DNA of 64,000 nt from Tychonema litorale BBK16 (lineage in GTDB: Bacteria; Cyanobacteriota; Cyanobacteriia; Cyanobacteriales; Microcoleaceae). The position numbers and the translations under genes were made by a program. Below the pieces are notes generated by a model. That model saw only the letters and a program-made list of their open reading frames with translations. It was not told the DNA's origin and did not search any database. Positions 17,515 through 26,922 of this stretch are shown piece after piece; positions within the stretch are counted from its first letter, which is position 1, and the number at the start of each line of letters is the position of its first letter. Location: positions 41,151 through 105,150 of the forward strand of contig NZ_JAKJHX010000001.1 in the NCBI RefSeq assembly GCF_021648855.1. Reading direction: 5' to 3'.

Positions 17515-19869
17515 CTACAAACTTAGTTGCAAAGTATTTTCTGTGGTGATTTGCATTCGGGGAAGCGATAATAAAGAATCTTCAAAATTGCTAAATTTTG
17601 ATTCATAGGACACACCAAAAGTATAGCCGATCGCACTAACTAAATTTTCTACAATTTTATCAACATTTCCGTAGGGATAAGCGAAGCATCTGACAGGTTT
17701 CCCCAACCCGTATTCCAAGATAGCACGAGATTTTGCCGCTTCCCGCACAATTTCTGTGGGCGACAATCCAGTCAGAGGTTGATGAGTCGCAGACATGGAA
17801 CCAATCTCAATCCCTGCATCTCGTAGTTGCCGAATTTCGGGCCATCCCATTAATTGTACTTGTTCAGAGTCTGCTTTTTCCCAACTATTTGTTTTTCCTA
17901 TGGACTCTGCTACTAAAAAAACAGTTGCTGTAAAGTCAAAACGTTTTAGCAGAGGGAAAGCATGGTGAAAAAAGTCGAGATGGCCGCCGTCAAAAGTCAG
18001 CAATACAGCTTTACCGGGTAGAGGAGTTTTAGCGAGTTTCGCACTTTGCCAATTTTCCCAACTTGTACTATAATAACCAGCATCTTTCAGATACTGCAAG
18101 TGTTGTTCAAAGATTTCTGCATAAATGCGATTATAAGCGAGAATAGGTAAGCTTTTGGTAACAGTATTATTGTCAAAGAATTGAGGTTTAACTGATTGAG
18201 AAACTTCTCGATAGGTTGATTTTCGCCAAATAATTTCTGGTGCATAAAATACTTGTTTTGGTAAGTCGTTTTCTAAAGGAATTTGGGTTATCGGTTCCCC
18301 TGTAATTGCCGCTGCTTCTATTAATTCTCGTATCGCCGCTGCTGGTAGTGCGGCCCGACGATTGACACTGGTGCCGATCGCACTTTCGCGCCTCCCGAAC
18401 ATCACCGCATCTTGCGGGTAAATGCCCCCACAACCCTCTGCATTCAACCAATTGGGTGAATTCGCCCTTTTTTGAGCGGCATCGCTTAAGCGCGATCGCA
18501 AGGACATTTCGCCGCTTAGTGGTTTTCCCAGCAAAGCTTCTCGCACGCAGGCGACACACAATTCAAAACCGCAATTTTGAGTAATTGCCGATCGCACTTT
18601 TTGAGCAGAAACAAAGTTGTTCTCAACCGCAACAGTTATAATACCGATAGCAACACCGCCGACTTTTACCAGCACATCAATTTCGGAAAGCTCAACTTTG
18701 ATGTTAGGTAATTCTTGGCTAACCTCTACAGCAATCAAGTCTCTATCAAGGTTAATTGTGAATGATTCATCGGCTGTTTCTGGATTATAAAAATAAGCCT
18801 GAAGCCAATTCGGGCGATTCCAAATTTCCTGTAAAAATAGTGTCCAATTAAATTGCGGATTTTCGGGATTTTGTTGAAAAAAGCGCTTTATAATTTCCCA
18901 AGCGAACTCAGATGCGATCGCATCAGCCAGCACTACACCAGCCACAATCCCGTCACAGACAGGCAATTCAATGATTCCGAGTTCAACGCCGTCTAGTTGA
19001 ATTGTACAGTAAGTGCGATCGTATATTTGCGGAATCTCAATATCCAAAATTGGTTGACTCACCTCCACCTTAAGCTGATAGGCAACTTCAGAGTTAACCC
19101 ACTGAATTTGAGTTAAAATAGATTGAAGTTGATTGCTATTAAAAATTCCCTGATACTTGTGAACTTTAGTGCTTTGGATATCTCTTTGAATTCCTTGATG
19201 CCAAGGTAGATTCAAACTCAAATTAGCTGCTTTAGCTTTATAATTAATCAGCATTGCAGAGTTATACTCAATTCCAATAAAATCACAAATAGTTGCTAAA
19301 ACTAGATTCTTATTATCTATAAGCTCCTCGTATTTAACCAATATATGATGAGACTTATTAACATATTTATGGCTAGTTAATACTGCATATTTCCAGCGCT
19401 CAATACAGTGTTCTAAATCCCAAACACCGCCCCATAACTCGCTAAAATCCCTCGTAGCCTCATACATAGAAGCTATAGTATCCATACCATTTCGCAAAAT
19501 ATGTATAAACTTAGCATCCGGCACCAGACGCTCAATATCATCAATAAAATATATATGTTCCGGGGTTTTTTCCAACCAAATACTTTTATTTTCTTCGACA
19601 GCTAAACCATCTAAAATTCCGACAAACCAAGCAGCTTTGTTTTCCTCTGTTTGACTGTTATCAAAATCATGTAAAAACTCAGGGCGCTTAATCTCATCCC
19701 TGAAAAACTTGGTTAATCTAGTTGGTAAATTTGTCGCAAACTCCTCATATAGCAAATAGTGGAAAAACTTGGATTCAGGAAAAGAAATAATTTCTGGATG
19801 GGCTGCTAACAAACTTTGAAGAATTGTCGTACCGCTTCTCGGAGCTCCAACTAAAAATATCCGTTTCAT
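17515..19869 (-). CDS. Sulfotransferase / NodB-type deacetylase fusion protein
   Basis: 784 residues. Residues 1-240 are a PAPS sulfotransferase with the 5'-phosphosulfate loop LVGAPRSGTTILQSLL and the 3'-phosphate segment ILRNGMDTIASMY, both intact. Residues about 270-450 hold two copies of a small beta-rich domain also found in the cluster's glycosyltransferases. Residues about 590-784 are a polysaccharide-deacetylase (NodB) domain. There the metal motif TFDDG reads TFDGG (627-629) and the HxxxH pair reads MSATH (M692, H696), so two of the three usual metal ligands are absent. It probably modifies an exopolysaccharide. The deacetylase half may bind but not hydrolyse. Confidence 0.85.
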   Translation of the reverse strand: MKRIFLVGAPRSGTTILQSLLAAHPEIISFPESKFFHYLLYEEFATNLPTRLTKFFRDEIKRPEFLHDFDNSQTEENKAAWFVGILDGLAVEENKSIWLEKTPEHIYFIDDIERLVPDAKFIHILRNGMDTIASMYEATRDFSELWGGVWDLEHCIERWKYAVLTSHKYVNKSHHILVKYEELIDNKNLVLATICDFIGIEYNSAMLINYKAKAANLSLNLPWHQGIQRDIQSTKVHKYQGIFNSNQLQSILTQIQWVNSEVAYQLKVEVSQPILDIEIPQIYDRTYCTIQLDGVELGIIELPVCDGIVAGVVLADAIASEFAWEIIKRFFQQNPENPQFNWTLFLQEIWNRPNWLQAYFYNPETADESFTINLDRDLIAVEVSQELPNIKVELSEIDVLVKVGGVAIGIITVAVENNFVSAQKVRSAITQNCGFELCVACVREALLGKPLSGEMSLRSRLSDAAQKRANSPNWLNAEGCGGIYPQDAVMFGRRESAIGTSVNRRAALPAAAIRELIEAAAITGEPITQIPLENDLPKQVFYAPEIIWRKSTYREVSQSVKPQFFDNNTVTKSLPILAYNRIYAEIFEQHLQYLKDAGYYSTSWENWQSAKLAKTPLPGKAVLLTFDGGHLDFFHHAFPLLKRFDFTATVFLVAESIGKTNSWEKADSEQVQLMGWPEIRQLRDAGIEIGSMSATHQPLTGLSPTEIVREAAKSRAILEYGLGKPVRCFAYPYGNVDKIVENLVSAIGYTFGVSYESKFSNFEDSLLSLPRMQITTENTLQLSL

Positions 19870-19899
19870 TTGTTTACTGAATAAATTGTTTATGAGTAA

Positions 19900-20033
19900 G
19901 ATTTTTTAACCACAGAGAGCGCAGAGGACACAGAGGGAGAGAAGAAAGAGGGAGAGAAGAAAGAGGGAGAGAATAAAAAAGTATAATTCATGCTTCTCTC
20001 TGCGCTCTCTGTGGCCTCTGCGGTTAAAAAATC
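19900..20033. repeat. Long inverted repeat with A/G-rich loop
   Basis: The arms gattttttaacc plus cacagagagcgcagag (19900-19926) pair with ctctgcgctctctgtg (19998-20013) and ggttaaaaaatc (20022-20033). The loop holds three copies of gagggagagaagaaa. It lies between two minus-strand genes of the polysaccharide cluster and could terminate or attenuate transcription into the sulfotransferase gene. Confidence 0.75.
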
Positions 20034-20038
20034 TTTTC

Positions 20039-22111
20039 CTAACTCCAGGTAAAATCCTCTTTCAATAACTCAGAAAGTTCCCGATTATAAGGTTCAAAAT
20101 AACTGATCAACTCTTGTTCAATCGCCTCCGGCATTTTGCTATAATCCTCAGCACTATTAACTTCATACTCTTTAACTGTGCTACCACTAATATCCAAGAA
20201 ATTTAACACTTTAGCAAACTCTTTGCCGGGATTTGCCTGAAAATCCTCGCTCTTCAAAATCAGCAACTGTTCCCTAGGAAAATAATCAAGCCAATTCTTG
20301 ATTTGTTCCGCATAAATTCCCCGTGACAAGTAGGAATAATGCTGGTGATTGAAACTGTAATAACCATCATCAGAGCGAATTTTCTCTATTTCACCTTTTA
20401 GTCGATCGCCTTCAGATGCGATCGCCTTTTCAAACTCCAACTTTTCACAACCGATCGCCACTTCTAAATTATAGTGTAACCAAGCTCGTTTCACCGGATT
20501 TCGCAGCATCACAATCAACTTAACATCTGGGAAACACTTGTAAACCCGTTCCGCCACCAAAGGATGATAAATATAGTAACCAGTCATCTCCCACAGCAGC
20601 ACCTTCTCACCCGCAACACTCCGAGTCAACTGCTTGTTGTACCACTCAACACCCCGCTCAAAATTTAAATCAAAAAACTGAACTCTCCTCGCACCTTCTT
20701 TAATAATTTGCAAGTGATTTTCTAGATATCCACACAAAGCCTCCGCGCCACACTTTTGAGCACCAAGAATTAAGAAATCCGGCTTCTGCTTGTTTTTCAA
20801 CTGAGTGGAAATCTTGGCGTAGCCGGGATTATTTTTATTCAAAGCGTGAGTTGTTTCAGGTTTTTCAGGTAAATCCAGTACCTCCATTTTGCCTTGGAAT
20901 TCCCAGCGGTAGGGCGGACAAAGAATCGTTTTTTGGTGTACAGTCGATCGCACATATAGCGGATAAACGTGCCAGTGATAGTCGTAAGCATAGGCCCAAC
21001 TCTTTTCGTAAATCCCAGCATTCACATAATACTGACCGTTACCCAAATCTAACCTATCTAAATGCAGCCTGATTTTGCCCTCACCTTTAGCTAGGGGCAA
21101 TAATTTGCCCATTTGATTTGTATTAGTATCAAAACAATTTTGACCATCTTCCCGGCTAATTGTTACTCCAAAGATAGCAGCAGAAATCTGTTTTGGTACA
21201 GAATAATGAATCTCAATAGTTACAGAATCGCCGCTATCTATTTCCTCATCCGGTAATACTTTTACATCTGTAATTTCTACTTCCAAAGAACCGAAGCGAT
21301 TTTCATTAACTCGCAATTCCGAACCCGTGCTTGTAACTTCAGGAGGACGCATAGGAGTGCGTTTTTCGGTTTCCGATCGCATTTCCGACAAATATTGACC
21401 AGCCACCACTTCCGGTTCTCCGTAAGCGATGATTTTACCTTCCCGTAGCCACAAAGCCCGATCGCACAATTTTTGAATTTGTCCAGCGTTGTGCGAAATC
21501 AAAACAATCGCACAACCTTTAGTCTTAAACTCAGTTATTTTATTCAAACATTTAGCTTGAAAAGCCACATCACCAACCGACAAATGCTCATCAACTAACA
21601 GCACTTCGGGATCAGTGTGAATCGCCACCGAAAAAGCCAACCGCATTTGCATCCCTGTACTATAAGTCCGCATCGGGCTGTCAATAAACTGTTCCAACTC
21701 GGCAAATTGAACAATATCATCAAATCGGCGTGCCGCTTCCCGACGAGTCAAACCGGCAACCACCGCACCGACAAACACATTTTCTCGCCCAGTTAAATCC
21801 GAGTGAAAACCAGCACCCAAATCCAACAAGCCGCCAATTTTACCATTGACTTGAATAGTACCTTCTTCCGCGCGGCCAATACCGCCAACAAGTTGTAACA
21901 GTGTCGATTTTCCCGCGCCATTCTTGCCGAGAATTCCCAGCATTTCCCCAGGAGAAACACTAAAACTTATATCTCGTAATGCCCAGAAATGTGCCTGCGG
22001 TTTCATCCGCCACCATCCCCACAAAGCCGCCTCCATGATCGTAAAAGGTCGATCGGCACTGTAGCGATTAAAACGTTTCCCCAAACCCTTGACAACAATA
22101 GCTTGACGCAT
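20039..22111 (-). CDS. Wzt-like polysaccharide ABC exporter ATPase fused to a sulfotransferase-like domain
   Basis: 690 residues in three parts. Residues 1-245 are a complete ABC ATPase: Walker A GKNGAGKST at 63-71, signature YSTGMQMRLAF, Walker B VLLVDE, switch H207. Residues about 265-415 are a Wzt-type C-terminal beta-sandwich that recognises the glycan. Residues about 443-690 resemble heparan-type sulfotransferases, but the phosphosulfate loop is GAQKCGAEAL instead of a GG-T-T/S pattern, and the 3'-phosphate segment is RNPVKRAWLHY with Leu where Ser is usual. It joins the permease gene by a one-base TAATG overlap. Catalytic activity of the third part is doubtful. Confidence 0.88.
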   Translation of the reverse strand: MRQAIVVKGLGKRFNRYSADRPFTIMEAALWGWWRMKPQAHFWALRDISFSVSPGEMLGILGKNGAGKSTLLQLVGGIGRAEEGTIQVNGKIGGLLDLGAGFHSDLTGRENVFVGAVVAGLTRREAARRFDDIVQFAELEQFIDSPMRTYSTGMQMRLAFSVAIHTDPEVLLVDEHLSVGDVAFQAKCLNKITEFKTKGCAIVLISHNAGQIQKLCDRALWLREGKIIAYGEPEVVAGQYLSEMRSETEKRTPMRPPEVTSTGSELRVNENRFGSLEVEITDVKVLPDEEIDSGDSVTIEIHYSVPKQISAAIFGVTISREDGQNCFDTNTNQMGKLLPLAKGEGKIRLHLDRLDLGNGQYYVNAGIYEKSWAYAYDYHWHVYPLYVRSTVHQKTILCPPYRWEFQGKMEVLDLPEKPETTHALNKNNPGYAKISTQLKNKQKPDFLILGAQKCGAEALCGYLENHLQIIKEGARRVQFFDLNFERGVEWYNKQLTRSVAGEKVLLWEMTGYYIYHPLVAERVYKCFPDVKLIVMLRNPVKRAWLHYNLEVAIGCEKLEFEKAIASEGDRLKGEIEKIRSDDGYYSFNHQHYSYLSRGIYAEQIKNWLDYFPREQLLILKSEDFQANPGKEFAKVLNFLDISGSTVKEYEVNSAEDYSKMPEAIEQELISYFEPYNRELSELLKEDFTWS

Positions 22112-22905
22112 TATAACTCCTCTACAAAATGATCGCTTTGTCGTCTAAAAATTCCCATTCCGATGGGCAACAGAACTGCTACAATCAAACTTACAGTTAA
22201 CAGTGATTGCCAGTCGGGTTGCGTACCTTTCAAAAGTATGGCGCGGTAAGCTTCAATCAAAGGAACCATCGGATTAAACTGATAGAAAGGCAGAAATTCT
22301 TTCGGTATACTGTCGAGGTTATAAAAAATTGGAGTTAGATAAAAAAGCATCTGCAAAACTACGCCCAAAGTGTGCTGAGTGTCGCGAAAAGTAACGTTAA
22401 TGGCGGCGAGGGGATAAGCCAAACTCACTGTTAAGAAAAATTGAATTACCATCAAGACTGGCATATATAGCAGCACTGAATTCGGCTGAATCCCATCAAT
22501 TGCTAGAAAGATAATTAGTACGGGTAGCGCTAGCAAAAAGTGAATTAATCCAGTAGTGGTTGTCACCACAGGCAAAATCGCGATCGGAAAATTTGGCTGT
22601 CGAATTAAAGCCCGGTTGCTAGTAATCAATCCCGTTGCTTGAAATAGCGCCGTCTGAGTCCAAGTCCAAATTAATAAACCGCTAAAAGCAAAGGAAGAAA
22701 ACTGCGGAACATTTACCGGAATTACGGTTTTGAACACAAAAGAAAATACCGCCAACTGTAACAGTGGATTGATCAAAGTCCAAGCAATCCCCAGGGTCGA
22801 TCGCTTGTAAAGTAGTTTCATGTCGCGATCGACCAACTCCCGCAGCAAATCCCACAAATGAGCAATTCTGCGCCGTCGATAACCCAGTGTTTGCGTATTT
22901 TTCAC
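22111..22905 (-). CDS. ABC-2 type polysaccharide export permease (Wzm/KpsM-like)
   Basis: A 264-residue membrane protein with the N-terminal amphipathic segment LLRELVDRDMKLLYKRSTLG, six predicted membrane segments, and the family phrase LYKRSTLGIAWTLINPLLQL. It forms the channel through which the glycan leaves the cytoplasm, powered by the ATPase encoded next. It overlaps the upstream glycosyltransferase by 4 bp and the ATPase by 1 bp, so the three are one translational unit. Confidence 0.93.
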   Translation of the reverse strand: MKNTQTLGYRRRRIAHLWDLLRELVDRDMKLLYKRSTLGIAWTLINPLLQLAVFSFVFKTVIPVNVPQFSSFAFSGLLIWTWTQTALFQATGLITSNRALIRQPNFPIAILPVVTTTTGLIHFLLALPVLIIFLAIDGIQPNSVLLYMPVLMVIQFFLTVSLAYPLAAINVTFRDTQHTLGVVLQMLFYLTPIFYNLDSIPKEFLPFYQFNPMVPLIEAYRAILLKGTQPDWQSLLTVSLIVAVLLPIGMGIFRRQSDHFVEEL

Positions 22906-24146
22906 CGTACACCTCCAGCGACTACCTGCGGTTCCACCTGCTGCGGTTCAACATCAGGAAGTTCAGCTAATTTTTGAGCCTGTAACTGCGCTTCCCTGTA
23001 AGCAAAAGGACTCTGTAAAGCTCCCAGCAACTCGCTGACGACCAACTTGCGGGGAAACCATCCCGGCTGTCTCAATCGTCGCAACAGCCACCAGTTCAGC
23101 CAGTTAAACACCGCAAAGTGCAGAATTGCGCCACGGCTGACAGTGCGGTTGCGATCGCACGTCAGCAAATAAGCCCCAAAACCGCGCCCGTTGTCCCGTA
23201 GTTGGCGGCTCAAAGCCTCACCACTGCGTCGGTGTACGTGCCATACAAAAGCTGTGGGCTCGTAAAAAGTCGAGTACCCCTTCGCCAAAATCCGGTGAAA
23301 CATCTCGATATCCCCAGCGCCCCTAGTCGGAGTTCCGACATCCAAAGCCGGGTCAAAATTGCCTACATCCTGGAACACTTGGCGGCGGAAAGCCATATTC
23401 GCGCCAACGCCGTAAGCGCTTGCCCACAGCAACTTCTGCGCCGTGAGTTGGCTACCGTCAACTTTAAAACAGTGGAGGTATTGCAGCATTCCCCCGTAGC
23501 CGAATTCGTATTGAATTTGAGCCTCTGTTTCCAATTCCGCCGGTGCAACCAAACCGCTAACTGCCATAATTTCCGGGTCAACAAAACCAGCAGCGATGCC
23601 CCGCAGCCAACCTCGATCGGGCCGAACGTCATCGTCAGTAAAAGCAATAATTTCGTGACTGGCTTCAGCGATGCCACGATTGCGAGCCCAGTCCAATCCT
23701 GGCCGTTCTTCTTTCACGTAGCGTACAGGTAATCCAGCGACGAATTCAGCGGTGCTGTTGTTGGAAGGAGCGTTGTCTATGATGATGATTTCGCGATCGG
23801 GATAGTCTACGGCAAGAATTGCTTCGAGAGCGCCTTTGAGTAAGTCGGTGCGATCGCGCGTACAGATAACTACGCTAATAGGTGGTAGCAGATCGTTTGA
23901 CTTTGGTTGCAGCCCCAACTTTTCGGTCAGAATTGCTTTAGTCAATTCCTTCCCTATTTGCTCCACAATTGTCGATCGCACCCGTTCGGCCGGAATAATT
24001 GCTTGCCAAGGATTGTTGAACATTTCCACCCATTTGATAGGCACTCCCCGGTATCGTACCAAAATACGAATTTTATCGTATTTTTCAAGTCCCCTAATCT
24101 GATTTATCGGTTCTGAAAATTCGAGATCAAGCAGTTTTATGCCCAT
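22902..24146 (-). CDS. Family 2 glycosyltransferase with N-terminal accessory domain
   Basis: 414 residues. Residues 1-78 are an accessory domain (LLDLEFSEP, ILVRYRGVPIKWVEM, VRSTIVEQIGKEL). Residues about 90-330 are a GT2 catalytic domain with ISVVICTRDR, IIIIDNAPSN, the metal motif FTDDDVRPDRGW, and the acceptor region GAGDIEMFHRIL. A proline/valine tail follows. It adds a sugar to the cluster's glycan, donor unknown. It sits first in the overlapping GT-permease-ATPase unit. The accessory domain is the same as in the genes at 25756, 24406 and 17515. Confidence 0.9.
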   Translation of the reverse strand: MGIKLLDLEFSEPINQIRGLEKYDKIRILVRYRGVPIKWVEMFNNPWQAIIPAERVRSTIVEQIGKELTKAILTEKLGLQPKSNDLLPPISVVICTRDRTDLLKGALEAILAVDYPDREIIIIDNAPSNNSTAEFVAGLPVRYVKEERPGLDWARNRGIAEASHEIIAFTDDDVRPDRGWLRGIAAGFVDPEIMAVSGLVAPAELETEAQIQYEFGYGGMLQYLHCFKVDGSQLTAQKLLWASAYGVGANMAFRRQVFQDVGNFDPALDVGTPTRGAGDIEMFHRILAKGYSTFYEPTAFVWHVHRRSGEALSRQLRDNGRGFGAYLLTCDRNRTVSRGAILHFAVFNWLNWWLLRRLRQPGWFPRKLVVSELLGALQSPFAYREAQLQAQKLAELPDVEPQQVEPQVVAGGVR

Positions 24147-24164
24147 AAGTTTATCCTAGAAATA

Positions 24165-24408
24165 GTGGGGATTGGGAATGGGGAATTGGGAATGGGGAAT
24201 TGGGAAATTGGGAAATTGGGAATTGGGAAATTGGGAATTGGGTACTGGGGAATTGGGAAATTGGGAAATGGGGAATTAGGTACTGGGAATTAGGTACTGG
24301 GAATTGGTTACTGGGAATTGGTTATTAGAAAAATTAGTAACAATTAACTATGCCCAATGCCCAATGCCCAATGCCCAATGCCCAATGCCCAATGCCCCAT
24401 TCCCATTA
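24165..24408. repeat. Heptamer repeat arrays on both sides of a short core
   Basis: GGGAATT/GGGAAAT heptamers (24170-24320) give way to CCCAATG heptamers (24352-24402), so the two arrays face each other as a large imperfect inverted repeat between two minus-strand glycosyltransferase genes. Transcription from upstream would produce a very long hairpin here. Confidence 0.85.
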
Positions 24409-25692
24409 TTTAACAGCAATTAAAGGCTTAATCTCCTTCATAGCACTACTTTTTGGCAAACCATTAACCGCGATCGCCACCAGCAACTTATCCGACAGAG
24501 AATTTGCCAAAATCGGACGCAAATGAACGCCTCGCAGCCGCTCAATACCAACCTTGGGAGTGATGTGACCGATCGGCAATTCACCATAACGTAAGTAAAT
24601 ACCATCAGGCCGTTTCTCATCAATGATTAGTTCAGCAGTTTCCCAACCTTGCATCAAGTCTATTTCAATTTCGCGATCGCTCAAATCCCCCCTAGCCGAT
24701 CCTCCTTGCATAAAACTAGAAATAGCCGATCGACTTTTCAACTCATCTATCACCCCCCGGAAATACCAATAACCGCGCAACTTTGCCCGCACCCACCGCC
24801 AAGTTGTCCGCATCCCCAAACTTTCTAGAAAATCCAGAGATTTTCTCAGCCCCGCCGCCAACAAATCCACCGCAGCCGGCCAAAAAAACGCGATCGCCAC
24901 CAAAATTTTATCTGCCCGCGAATAAGGAAGTTCGTAATTATTTATGTTTAAAATCGGTCTCAGTTCCGGGTGTCGCAAACCAATTAAAACATCCGAGCGT
25001 CCTTCCTGGCGAGCGCGACGAAAAGAGCGATCCAGATTGTTAGTTTCGTGTTCATAATGATAGCCCACCGCCCCCGCAGACATTACAAAAGGCACATCAG
25101 CTTTCAGCAAACGTACCCCGAATTCGTAATCTTCACCGCCACAATTCCCGAAAGCCACATCAAAGCCACCAAGATGAGCAAACAATCCTGAATCCAGAGA
25201 AAGATTACCGCTGAGCAAATCTTCATACTCGTAGCGGTGAGTCGGCTGGCTCATTTTGTAAAATTTTTCCTCCCACCAACTCCGCACTTCCACATCAAAA
25301 TAATTAGTGCTCCCCTGCAACTTGGGGGGATAAGGGCCCATGACAGCGCAGCCCGGATGCTCTCGGTGAGTGCGCGCGTGGCTTTCTACCAGCAGCGGCA
25401 TTGCTTCAATGTCATCGTCTAAAAATAACAGCAACTCTCCAGTAGCAGCCGATGCTCCTGTGTTACGCGCGATCGCAGCACTCCGACAATTCACCTCAAC
25501 AACCTGCAATTTAAACAGAGCTTTATAGTCTTTTAACATTGCCAAAGTATCGTCAATACAGCTATCTGCGACTACTGTAACCTCCATAAGGTCGATCGGA
25601 TAAGTCTGCGATTGCAAAGCATCAAGAGCCCGCTGCAACGAAGAACTTCGGTTATGAGTCGGAATAATTATGCTAACTGTTAGATTTTCCAT
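24406..25692 (-). CDS. Family 2 glycosyltransferase with C-terminal accessory domain
   Basis: 428 residues. The GT2 domain is at about 1-240: VSIIIPTHNRSSSLQRAL, the metal motif LLLFLDDDIEAM, and the acceptor motif GNCGGEDYEFGVRLL. A helical middle follows, and at about 340-420 comes a copy of the cluster's accessory domain (IEIDLMQGWETAELI, YLRYGELPIGHITP, LRPILANSLSD). Here the domain is at the C-terminus, whereas in the two other glycosyltransferases it is at the N-terminus. No membrane segments are seen. It probably extends the exported polysaccharide. Confidence 0.88.
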   Translation of the reverse strand: MENLTVSIIIPTHNRSSSLQRALDALQSQTYPIDLMEVTVVADSCIDDTLAMLKDYKALFKLQVVEVNCRSAAIARNTGASAATGELLLFLDDDIEAMPLLVESHARTHREHPGCAVMGPYPPKLQGSTNYFDVEVRSWWEEKFYKMSQPTHRYEYEDLLSGNLSLDSGLFAHLGGFDVAFGNCGGEDYEFGVRLLKADVPFVMSAGAVGYHYEHETNNLDRSFRRARQEGRSDVLIGLRHPELRPILNINNYELPYSRADKILVAIAFFWPAAVDLLAAGLRKSLDFLESLGMRTTWRWVRAKLRGYWYFRGVIDELKSRSAISSFMQGGSARGDLSDREIEIDLMQGWETAELIIDEKRPDGIYLRYGELPIGHITPKVGIERLRGVHLRPILANSLSDKLLVAIAVNGLPKSSAMKEIKPLIAVK

Positions 25693-25696
25693 ATTT

Positions 25697-25725
25697 AAAT
25701 TGGGAATTGGGAATTGGGAATTGGG
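25697..25725. repeat. Short GGGAATT array
   Basis: Four perfect GGGAATT heptamers in the 63-base gap between two minus-strand glycosyltransferase genes, followed by the hexamer run atgactaatgactaatgact. It belongs to the same class as the larger arrays. Confidence 0.85.
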
Positions 25726-25755
25726 AATTGGTAATGACTAATGACTAATGACTTC

Positions 25756-26922
25756 TTATAACTGCTTGCGAGAAGTAAAATAAGCTATCGGCCCACTAAA
25801 ACAGCCCCGCAACTGAGCCAAAAGCAAATCACTAGGAATAGAATCCGGTTTCTTTCGCAAAGAAGCAACTAACTCCGGCAATTGTTTGTACCGGAACCAT
25901 CCCCAAGCTAACAGAGGTACACTGAATTCCCTGTTTACCACAAACATCCGCGTCCAAAAAGCATAGACTCCAATTCCATAACCTTGAAGTGTTTTGCGTA
26001 ATTCTTCCCAAGTGCGTCGGTGACGATGCCAACTCAAAGCCCTGGGTTCATAAACAATGCGATAGCCCGATCGCAAAATACGAGCAAACAACTCACAGTC
26101 CTCCCCGCCCACAGTCGGAGTTCCAGCCCCCAAATCTTCATCAAACACCCCTATAAAGTCGATCGCACTCGAACGCAAAGCCATACTCGCCGAAACACCC
26201 ACCGGTGCCACAATCAGCGGATTAATATTCGCCCCATCGAACACAACACGCCCAAATCCCCGCCCGTGGGGGCTATAGCGCTCAAACCATTCTTGCGCCT
26301 CCGTTTCCAATTCTAGCGGCATGATTAGCCCCGTAACGCACATCACGCGAGGGTCACTGAAATTTTGTAAGAGCGATCGCAACCAGTTCGGATCAGGAGC
26401 CGCATCATCATCTGTAAAGGCTATGAATTCGTGTTTAGCCTCACGTAAAGCGCGGTTCCGGGCGGCGCTGGAGCCGGGTACATCTTCCCGCACATAGCGG
26501 ACTTTCGGGTAATTTTTGACCAGTTCCATCGTCGCATCGGTGGCAGGACAATTGTCAATTACCAAGTATTCCTGACCGTCGTCCGGCATTCGCATAAATG
26601 CTTCTAGACAACGCTGCAAATCTTCCGGGCGATCGCGTGTGCAAACTACTGCTGTAGCGATCGGCACTGGTTGCACCGCCCCACGTTCGTCCCATTCCAA
26701 GGTGTCATATAGCCAGTTTTTCCACAGGTTATCTCCCACAGCGTTCATCAGTGTTTCCCGCAATTGAGATCCCTCTATGCGACCTCCGACTACGGACAAA
26801 GTTGCTTGCCCGATCGGGTTTCCATAAAGTCGAATCAACACCAGAGCTTTGCTGTAACGTTCATCAACCGTTATTTCTGGTGGCAGTTGGGAAATTTCTA
26901 GATCGAGAATAGCTGTTGCCAT
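25756..26922 (-). CDS. Family 2 glycosyltransferase with N-terminal accessory domain
   Basis: 388 residues. The accessory domain is at 1-80 (ILDLEISQLPPE, VLIRLYGNPIGQATL, LRETLMNAVGDNL), then a GT2 domain with TAVVCTRDRPEDLQRCLEA, the metal motif FTDDDAAPDPNW, and GGEDCELFARIL. It is the closest relative of the gene at 22902 in length and layout. It is the first gene of the minus-strand polysaccharide cluster. The promoter should lie in the 400 bases upstream. Confidence 0.9.
   Translation of the reverse strand: MATAILDLEISQLPPEITVDERYSKALVLIRLYGNPIGQATLSVVGGRIEGSQLRETLMNAVGDNLWKNWLYDTLEWDERGAVQPVPIATAVVCTRDRPEDLQRCLEAFMRMPDDGQEYLVIDNCPATDATMELVKNYPKVRYVREDVPGSSAARNRALREAKHEFIAFTDDDAAPDPNWLRSLLQNFSDPRVMCVTGLIMPLELETEAQEWFERYSPHGRGFGRVVFDGANINPLIVAPVGVSASMALRSSAIDFIGVFDEDLGAGTPTVGGEDCELFARILRSGYRIVYEPRALSWHRHRRTWEELRKTLQGYGIGVYAFWTRMFVVNREFSVPLLAWGWFRYKQLPELVASLRKKPDSIPSDLLLAQLRGCFSGPIAYFTSRKQL

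Follow-up and report, generated by a model that had tools for sequence, protein, structure and literature searches.

A recurring domain of about 75 residues in polysaccharide-assembly enzymes of Tychonema litorale BBK16 and its possible role in enzyme assembly

A minus-strand gene cluster at positions 17515-26922 of a 64,000-nucleotide stretch of the cyanobacterium Tychonema litorale BBK16 (contig NZ_JAKJHX010000001.1; hereafter the window, at its full length) encodes, in transcription order, three GT2 glycosyltransferases (GTs) F, E and D, a Wzm-type permease, a Wzt-type ATPase and a fusion protein, A. We confirmed that five segments of 69-77 residues in four of these proteins are copies of one domain, here called DOM, which has no name in the family libraries searched, Pfam and NCBIfam. 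DOM is nearly exclusive to polysaccharide-assembly enzymes and is co-inherited with each enzyme; its main hosts are GT2 glycosyltransferases and fusions of a GT2 or a sulfotransferase with a polysaccharide deacetylase. From sequence comparison we tentatively propose that DOM may be a non-catalytic accessory domain of roughly 75 residues that helps polysaccharide enzymes to assemble, most likely by DOM-DOM pairing, and we assign this reading a probability of about 0.45.

Five copies of one domain

The initial annotation of the window had described a recurring segment in four minus-strand proteins, at the N terminus of those starting at 22902 (D) and 25756 (F), at the C terminus of that at 24406 (E) and twice in the middle of that at 17515 (A). 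All five segments are present, the three strings it quoted lie where it had placed them, and domain limits set by profile agree: residues 1-75 of F (26698..26922, on the minus strand like all features given here), 1-77 of D (23916..24146), 339-412 of E (24457..24678), and 266-334 (copy 1, 18868..19074) and 377-446 (copy 2, 18532..18741) of A. BLASTP among the six cluster proteins linked D with F (E 8e-6), D with the second copy of A (E 3e-5) and F with E (E 1e-4). A first profile, built from the five window segments, found only these copies in the T. litorale genome at E ≤ 10, versus 42 matches to PF00535, and scored the F copy, on which it had been trained, at E 1.9e-33; neither this search nor the first cyanobacterial one is independent of the finding itself.

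For a hold-out test, hidden Markov models (HMMs) were built leaving out one class of copies each time and run over 5711 open reading frames (ORFs). These models recovered the window copies of F, D, A first and A second with independent E-values (iE) of 1.8e-13, 2.7e-11, 6.7e-11 and 8.5e-7, and at 1e-3 they found 10/10 members of the F class, 26/26 of the D class, 13/13 first copies and 5/8 second copies of A. None of the 15 members of the C-terminal (E) class was recovered at that threshold (window copy, iE 0.12). The noise floor lay near 4e-4, a level reached by one HAD hydrolase, and we regard this borderline match (locus L047) as noise. In profile-profile alignment with HHalign, the E class aligned with the rest at 93-94% probability (E 3e-7 and 8e-8), colinearly across 69-71 columns; 11 of 12 controls stayed at 2% or less, and the twelfth, which ran into DOM itself, reached 64%. 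The E copy is thus less firmly placed by sequence than the other four, since the hold-out HMM misses it and only profile-profile alignment joins it to them. That miss, together with the low identities in the five-segment alignment (19-31% to the first), could suggest unrelated stretches with a loose common hydrophobic pattern. We consider this very improbable in view of hold-out E-values down to 1e-13 for four copies, the profile-profile probability for the fifth and the recurrence of DOM in Chloroflexota on the same enzyme types.

Scans of the six cluster proteins against Pfam and NCBIfam gave no match on the five segments at E ≤ 0.1; SepSecS partly overlaps DOM of D at E 0.11. When 36 DOM members were scanned alone, the best matches had E 0.0074 in Pfam (PF13636) and E 0.021 in NCBIfam (1/36). 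The description of the domain as unnamed therefore holds for these two libraries, in which no match was better than E 0.007. Our literature search found no description of DOM, and PDB sequence searches gave nothing significant; InterPro, CDD and AlphaFold DB lay outside the library search.

The fold of DOM is predicted to be beta-beta-beta-alpha. AlphaFold2 modelled the F copy from 39 sequences with strands at residues 2-9, 23-32 and 35-43 and a helix at 51-80 (mean predicted local distance difference test score, pLDDT, 71.8), and the tandem of A from its own 13 sequences (mean pLDDT 56.4). These two predictions, made from separate alignments and of moderate or low confidence, cover three of the five copies. 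Five different folds, the outcome that would have refuted the annotation, were not seen: all three modelled copies have the same hairpin followed by a helix, and the short first strand of the tandem model appears in copy 1 only and is missing from the last copy. In Foldseek searches with the F copy model, none of 327 PDB matches reached E ≤ 0.001 (best E 0.44), and nothing significant was found among viral structures. TruB (E 0.47) and 3iuw (E 1.3), neither of them significant, we take to be PUA-like, and PF13636 matches 3/36 DOM members at E ≤ 1; we did not adopt a PUA-like relation on these weak hints. A relation to PqqD/RRE or to the N-terminal part of MftF was likewise set aside at HHalign probabilities below 3%, obtained with weak sets (three MftF sequences, one of them extended at its N terminus by unrelated residues, and a PqqD set containing wrong-frame ORFs).

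In total, 223 copies (114 non-redundant) were compared, excluding those with fewer than 49 profile positions or iE above 1e-3. The most conserved columns of the 114 are hydrophobic, together with one acidic residue (96%) and one glycine (92%); no polar or aromatic set of ligand residues common to the whole family was seen among them. Since there is no family-wide conserved polar set, DOM is probably non-catalytic. The C-terminal class shows strong conservation of its own, for example EPLRGxHLR. For F and D, the GT2 part is better conserved than DOM in 11/11 comparisons (nearly equal in one), and for E the two are similarly conserved across 6 comparisons. Alternatively, DOM might bind glycans: as a small module on each enzyme, it would hold the growing chain or the lipid-linked end of that chain. 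Class-specific residues such as EPLRGxHLR could then be ligand residues, family matches mark the identified hosts as enzymes of carbohydrate chains, and all chain-handling proteins of the cluster except the permease carry either DOM or the glycan-binding domain of Wzt. We nevertheless find such a module quite unlikely, as a family-wide aromatic or polar cluster was not seen and DOM matched neither PDB sequences nor, in Pfam, the Wzt C-terminal domain.

Hosts, distribution and descent

A second profile of 35 sequences, cyanobacterial only, was made from matches of the first; the cyanobacterial draw is therefore not independent. With this profile, DOM was found in 18/291 cyanobacterial genomes, including 7 that had contributed no match to its construction, and in 23/301 Chloroflexota genomes, a draw independent of the training except for 2/23 positives reached through protein F (G292 and G296). 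A broader profile found DOM in 0/299 Pseudomonadota genomes, a draw that included no known positive, so that the empty answer alone shows nothing. Plasmid records gave weak matches in the Pseudomonadota Ensifer adhaerens (iE 3.3e-5) and Sinorhizobium fredii (iE 2.7e-6), matches in Deinococcus aetherius (7e-20) and Dietzia (1e-9), three copies in Gloeothece verrucosa PCC 7822 (1.5e-20 to 4.8e-14) and a marginal match in Kitasatospora (0.007).

Among the fetched host ORFs, 44/45 in Cyanobacteria and 43/43 in Chloroflexota (87/88 in the two draws) also match GT2, sulfotransferase or deacetylase families; four ORFs of G294 (unclassified Bacteria) and G295, reached through protein F, are excluded from the 43/43. 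The remaining ORF (257 residues, L144:7388-8161, minus strand, G284) is a DOM-GT2 protein truncated shortly after the start of GT2. Over all fetched loci the proportion is 200/201 (181 distinct sequences; several loci duplicate the same DNA, and distinct counts are given alongside). The profile matches thus concentrate on GT2, sulfotransferase and deacetylase proteins and are not spread at random, which supports the annotation. GT2 is present in most hosts of both draws. One Chloroflexota ORF reads as a DOM-GT-Wzm fusion (L118); it joins pieces of GT, Wzm and, by eye, a C-terminal-class DOM, looks broken or misassembled and was not accepted as an architecture, and it is still included in the host count.

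The commonest architectures are DOM-GT (121 ORFs, 110 distinct), GT-DOM (36, 30 distinct) and sulfotransferase-DOM-DOM-deacetylase (21, 20 distinct), followed by DOM-GT-DOM-GT (8, all distinct) and GT-DOM-DOM-deacetylase (4, 3 distinct); others occur once or twice each. One of them is a GT-DOM-DOM-GT fusion, where an E-type GT2 ends in a DOM that adjoins the N-terminal DOM of a second GT2.

In a FastTree phylogeny of the 114 non-redundant copies, the E class, the F class, the first A copies and the second A copies each form one clade with a FastTree support of 1.00 that spans Cyanobacteria and Chloroflexota; G294 is labelled Chloroflexota in the tree, and the named clades span both phyla without it. 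The D class does not come out as one clade with good support; it lies close to the second copies found in DOM-GT-DOM-GT proteins. Deeper nodes are poorly supported. Because the clades keep their place relative to the enzyme, what the annotation had seen as a changing position is instead a kept property of each enzyme class, less resolved for D. First and second copies of the A type are the same behind a sulfotransferase (Microcoleus) or a GT2 (Nostoc T09, Scytolyngbya), which argues that the front enzyme was exchanged and the DOM-DOM-deacetylase core kept.

These data bear on a further explanation, in which DOM is an intramolecular accessory domain: packed on the GT2 or deacetylase next to it, it would influence stability or the access of acceptors and would not hold different enzymes together. 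Such a domain would fit the GT2 in most hosts, the DOM classes that track their own enzymes in the tree and the single DOM-GT2 genes that occur in Chloroflexota without a partner cluster. It fits less well with DOM on either side of GT2 and with the same first and second copies before the deacetylase whichever enzyme stands in front; since that enzyme varies, the A-type copies are not tied to one catalytic fold. On balance we consider an intramolecular role somewhat unlikely.

Side observations on the copies and hosts are as follows. In L051, L052 and L062, the first DOM of protein A is split by an in-frame insertion of about 30 residues, and L034, with a split profile match, probably represents the same contig as L051. 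The class F DOM-GT2 gene is doubled in L053, L059, L060 and L064, the two being adjacent or separated by a partial GT.

Assembly through DOM pairs

Assembly of polysaccharide enzymes through DOM-DOM pairs is the reading we prefer, because enzyme-DOM-DOM-enzyme fusions recur. The main reason for pairing is the GT-DOM-DOM-GT fusion, which sets two copies side by side as in the tandem of A, with 34 residues between the copies in the former and 42 in the latter. In the window, the four cluster enzymes besides the exporter all carry DOM, and the Wzt fusion, which is without it, has a known glycan-binding domain of its own.

According to the mechanism we propose, the three GT2 proteins (F and D as DOM-GT2, E as GT2-DOM) and fusion A would act in the cytoplasm, where they would synthesize a lipid-linked chain and modify it. 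DOM copies would position these enzymes in one complex, the DOM at the C terminus of E pairing with that at the N terminus of D, and the tandem copies inside A pairing with each other. Successive steps would then act on the same chain before Wzm/Wzt exports the finished product.

Genome neighbourhoods were counted in the 18 cyanobacterial genomes and in 22 of the 23 positive Chloroflexota genomes (G417, with one match, was left out). Wzm and Wzt together lie near DOM in 9/18 cyanobacterial genomes, any ATP-binding cassette (ABC) ATPase in 17/18 and 8/22, and at least two DOM ORFs occur in 14/18 and 12/22 (Cyanobacteria and Chloroflexota, respectively). Nostoc T09, Scytolyngbya and Gloeothece verrucosa PCC 7822 have the same gene order, F, E and D (DOM at the N, C and N terminus) and then Wzm and Wzt; Chloroflexota have parts of this order. 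The annotation had suggested that the domain holds synthesis, sulfation and export enzymes together. DOM is indeed a module associated with the enzymes, but Wzm and Wzt lack it, and sulfation is not what its hosts have in common: a sulfotransferase match lies near DOM in 5/18 cyanobacterial and 1/22 Chloroflexota genomes, and it is GT2 that most hosts contain.

Several points weigh against assembly through DOM. The exporter, Wzm and Wzt, is without the domain. Only 5/22 Chloroflexota genomes have Wzm and Wzt near DOM, and many Chloroflexota hosts are single DOM-GT2 proteins with neither nearby; 10/22 genomes have only one DOM ORF. The neighbour counts cover the surroundings of DOM genes only, not those of DOM-free GT2 clusters. 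The GT-DOM-DOM-GT fusion was seen once only, on a 3.9-kb contig, and an accessory domain acting within a single GT2 protein would explain the co-inheritance just as well.

Docking domains order polyketide synthases. By likeness, cognate DOM-DOM pairs, in trans between GTs and in cis in fusions, might order an assembly line at an ABC exporter in Cyanobacteria, Chloroflexota, Deinococcota and Actinomycetota. We rate a docking system of this extent as unlikely.

To our knowledge, it is largely an open question, apart from a few models such as WbdD-WbdA, how separate GTs and the enzymes that modify their product stay on the same growing chain. In Escherichia coli O9a, a non-catalytic C-terminal region of WbdD is reported to recruit the mannosyltransferase WbdA, and export to need chain termination (PMC3482155); this recruitment is a precedent for assembly through DOM. 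Recognition of the chain cap by Wzt has been established elsewhere (PMC9445017). DOM could serve as a genome marker for such polysaccharide systems, would allow many proteins whose only annotation is 'glycosyltransferase' to be grouped as one assembly type, and offers a concrete module to delete, swap or engineer.

The window cluster and related systems

Protein F (388 residues, 25756..26922; PF00535, E 4.5e-23) has its best relatives in Microcoleus (91% to Microcoleus sp. CAN_BIN18) and nearly full-length relatives of 52-57% identity in three Chloroflexota records. It is followed by E (428 residues, 24406..25692; PF00535, 6.7e-21) and D (414 residues, 22902..24146; PF00535, 2.5e-21). In their GT2 parts, D and F resemble the GT2 part of the mycofactocin glycosyltransferase MftF (TIGR03965; E 2e-35 and 2e-39, below cut-off). 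This similarity begins no earlier than the end of DOM, and the N-terminal part of MftF gave no profile similarity to DOM with a poor three-sequence set. The Wzm-type permease (22111..22905; PF01061, 5.5e-20; the galactan export permease model NF050109, 1.1e-16, below cut-off) adjoins the Wzt-type ATPase (20039..22111; PF00005, 1.3e-20), which has a C-terminal glycan-binding domain (PF14524, 1.8e-23, residues 269-390) and a sulfotransferase-like C terminus (PF00685, 1.5e-13). A permease gene next to an ATPase gene and a glycan-binding domain on Wzt are features of export dependent on an ABC transporter. Fusion A (784 residues, 17515..19869) joins a sulfotransferase (PF13469, 1.1e-32, residues 4-203) through the two DOM copies to a polysaccharide deacetylase (PF01522, 2.3e-24, residues 616-751). 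In A-type proteins the predicted sulfotransferase carries GxPRSGTT in 23/23 ORFs listed and RN[GP]xDxxxS in the 18 for which that pattern was listed. We take both to be motifs binding the sulfate donor 3'-phosphoadenosine 5'-phosphosulfate (PAPS).

The cluster resembles the E. coli O8/O9a Wzm/Wzt pathway with WbdD in its GTs, its Wzm, its Wzt with a C-terminal glycan-binding domain and the chain-modifying enzymes in the same cluster. Unlike that pathway, it has a recurrent 75-residue domain inside GTs and a sulfotransferase-deacetylase fusion, and no kinase was found by Pfam in its six proteins. Synechan (xss) of Synechocystis 6803 is likewise a cyanobacterial polysaccharide cluster with GTs and sulfotransferases (eight and two genes, respectively); the window cluster differs in its Wzm/Wzt and in its fused multi-domain enzymes that contain DOM. 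As a type, the window cluster is not new, because sulfotransferases in cyanobacterial ABC-type polysaccharide clusters were reported before (PMC8205485).

A second type of cyanobacterial cluster (L039, L043, L044, L046 and L140-L144) has a one-piece ABC protein of about 597-635 residues and two DOM-GT2 genes close by, with no Wzm/Wzt match within the fetched stretch. Scytolyngbya also encodes a GT-DOM-DOM-methyltransferase-deacetylase protein with a NodS-type methyltransferase (L040:8319-11807, minus strand; L161:7909-10911, plus strand). The same order of enzymes is found in a Rhizobium protein whose record names it a trifunctional glycosyltransferase/SAM-methyltransferase/polysaccharide deacetylase. 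The trifunctional protein of Rhizobium leguminosarum gave no DOM match at E ≤ 10; by eye, a similar stretch lies between its GT and methyltransferase.

The sulfotransferase-like C terminus of Wzt (residues about 440-644) is present in 22 fetched ORFs (21 distinct, 689-690 residues) and absent from 18 other Wzt ORFs (13 distinct). Compared with the standard PAPS-binding motifs, its motifs look degraded, and this C terminus may have been retained on the exporter as a pseudo-enzyme: an acidic residue stands two residues after GAQ[KN][CS] in 19 of the 21 distinct sequences, those listed, and L, M or V replaces the Ser after RNPVxRAW in 21/21.

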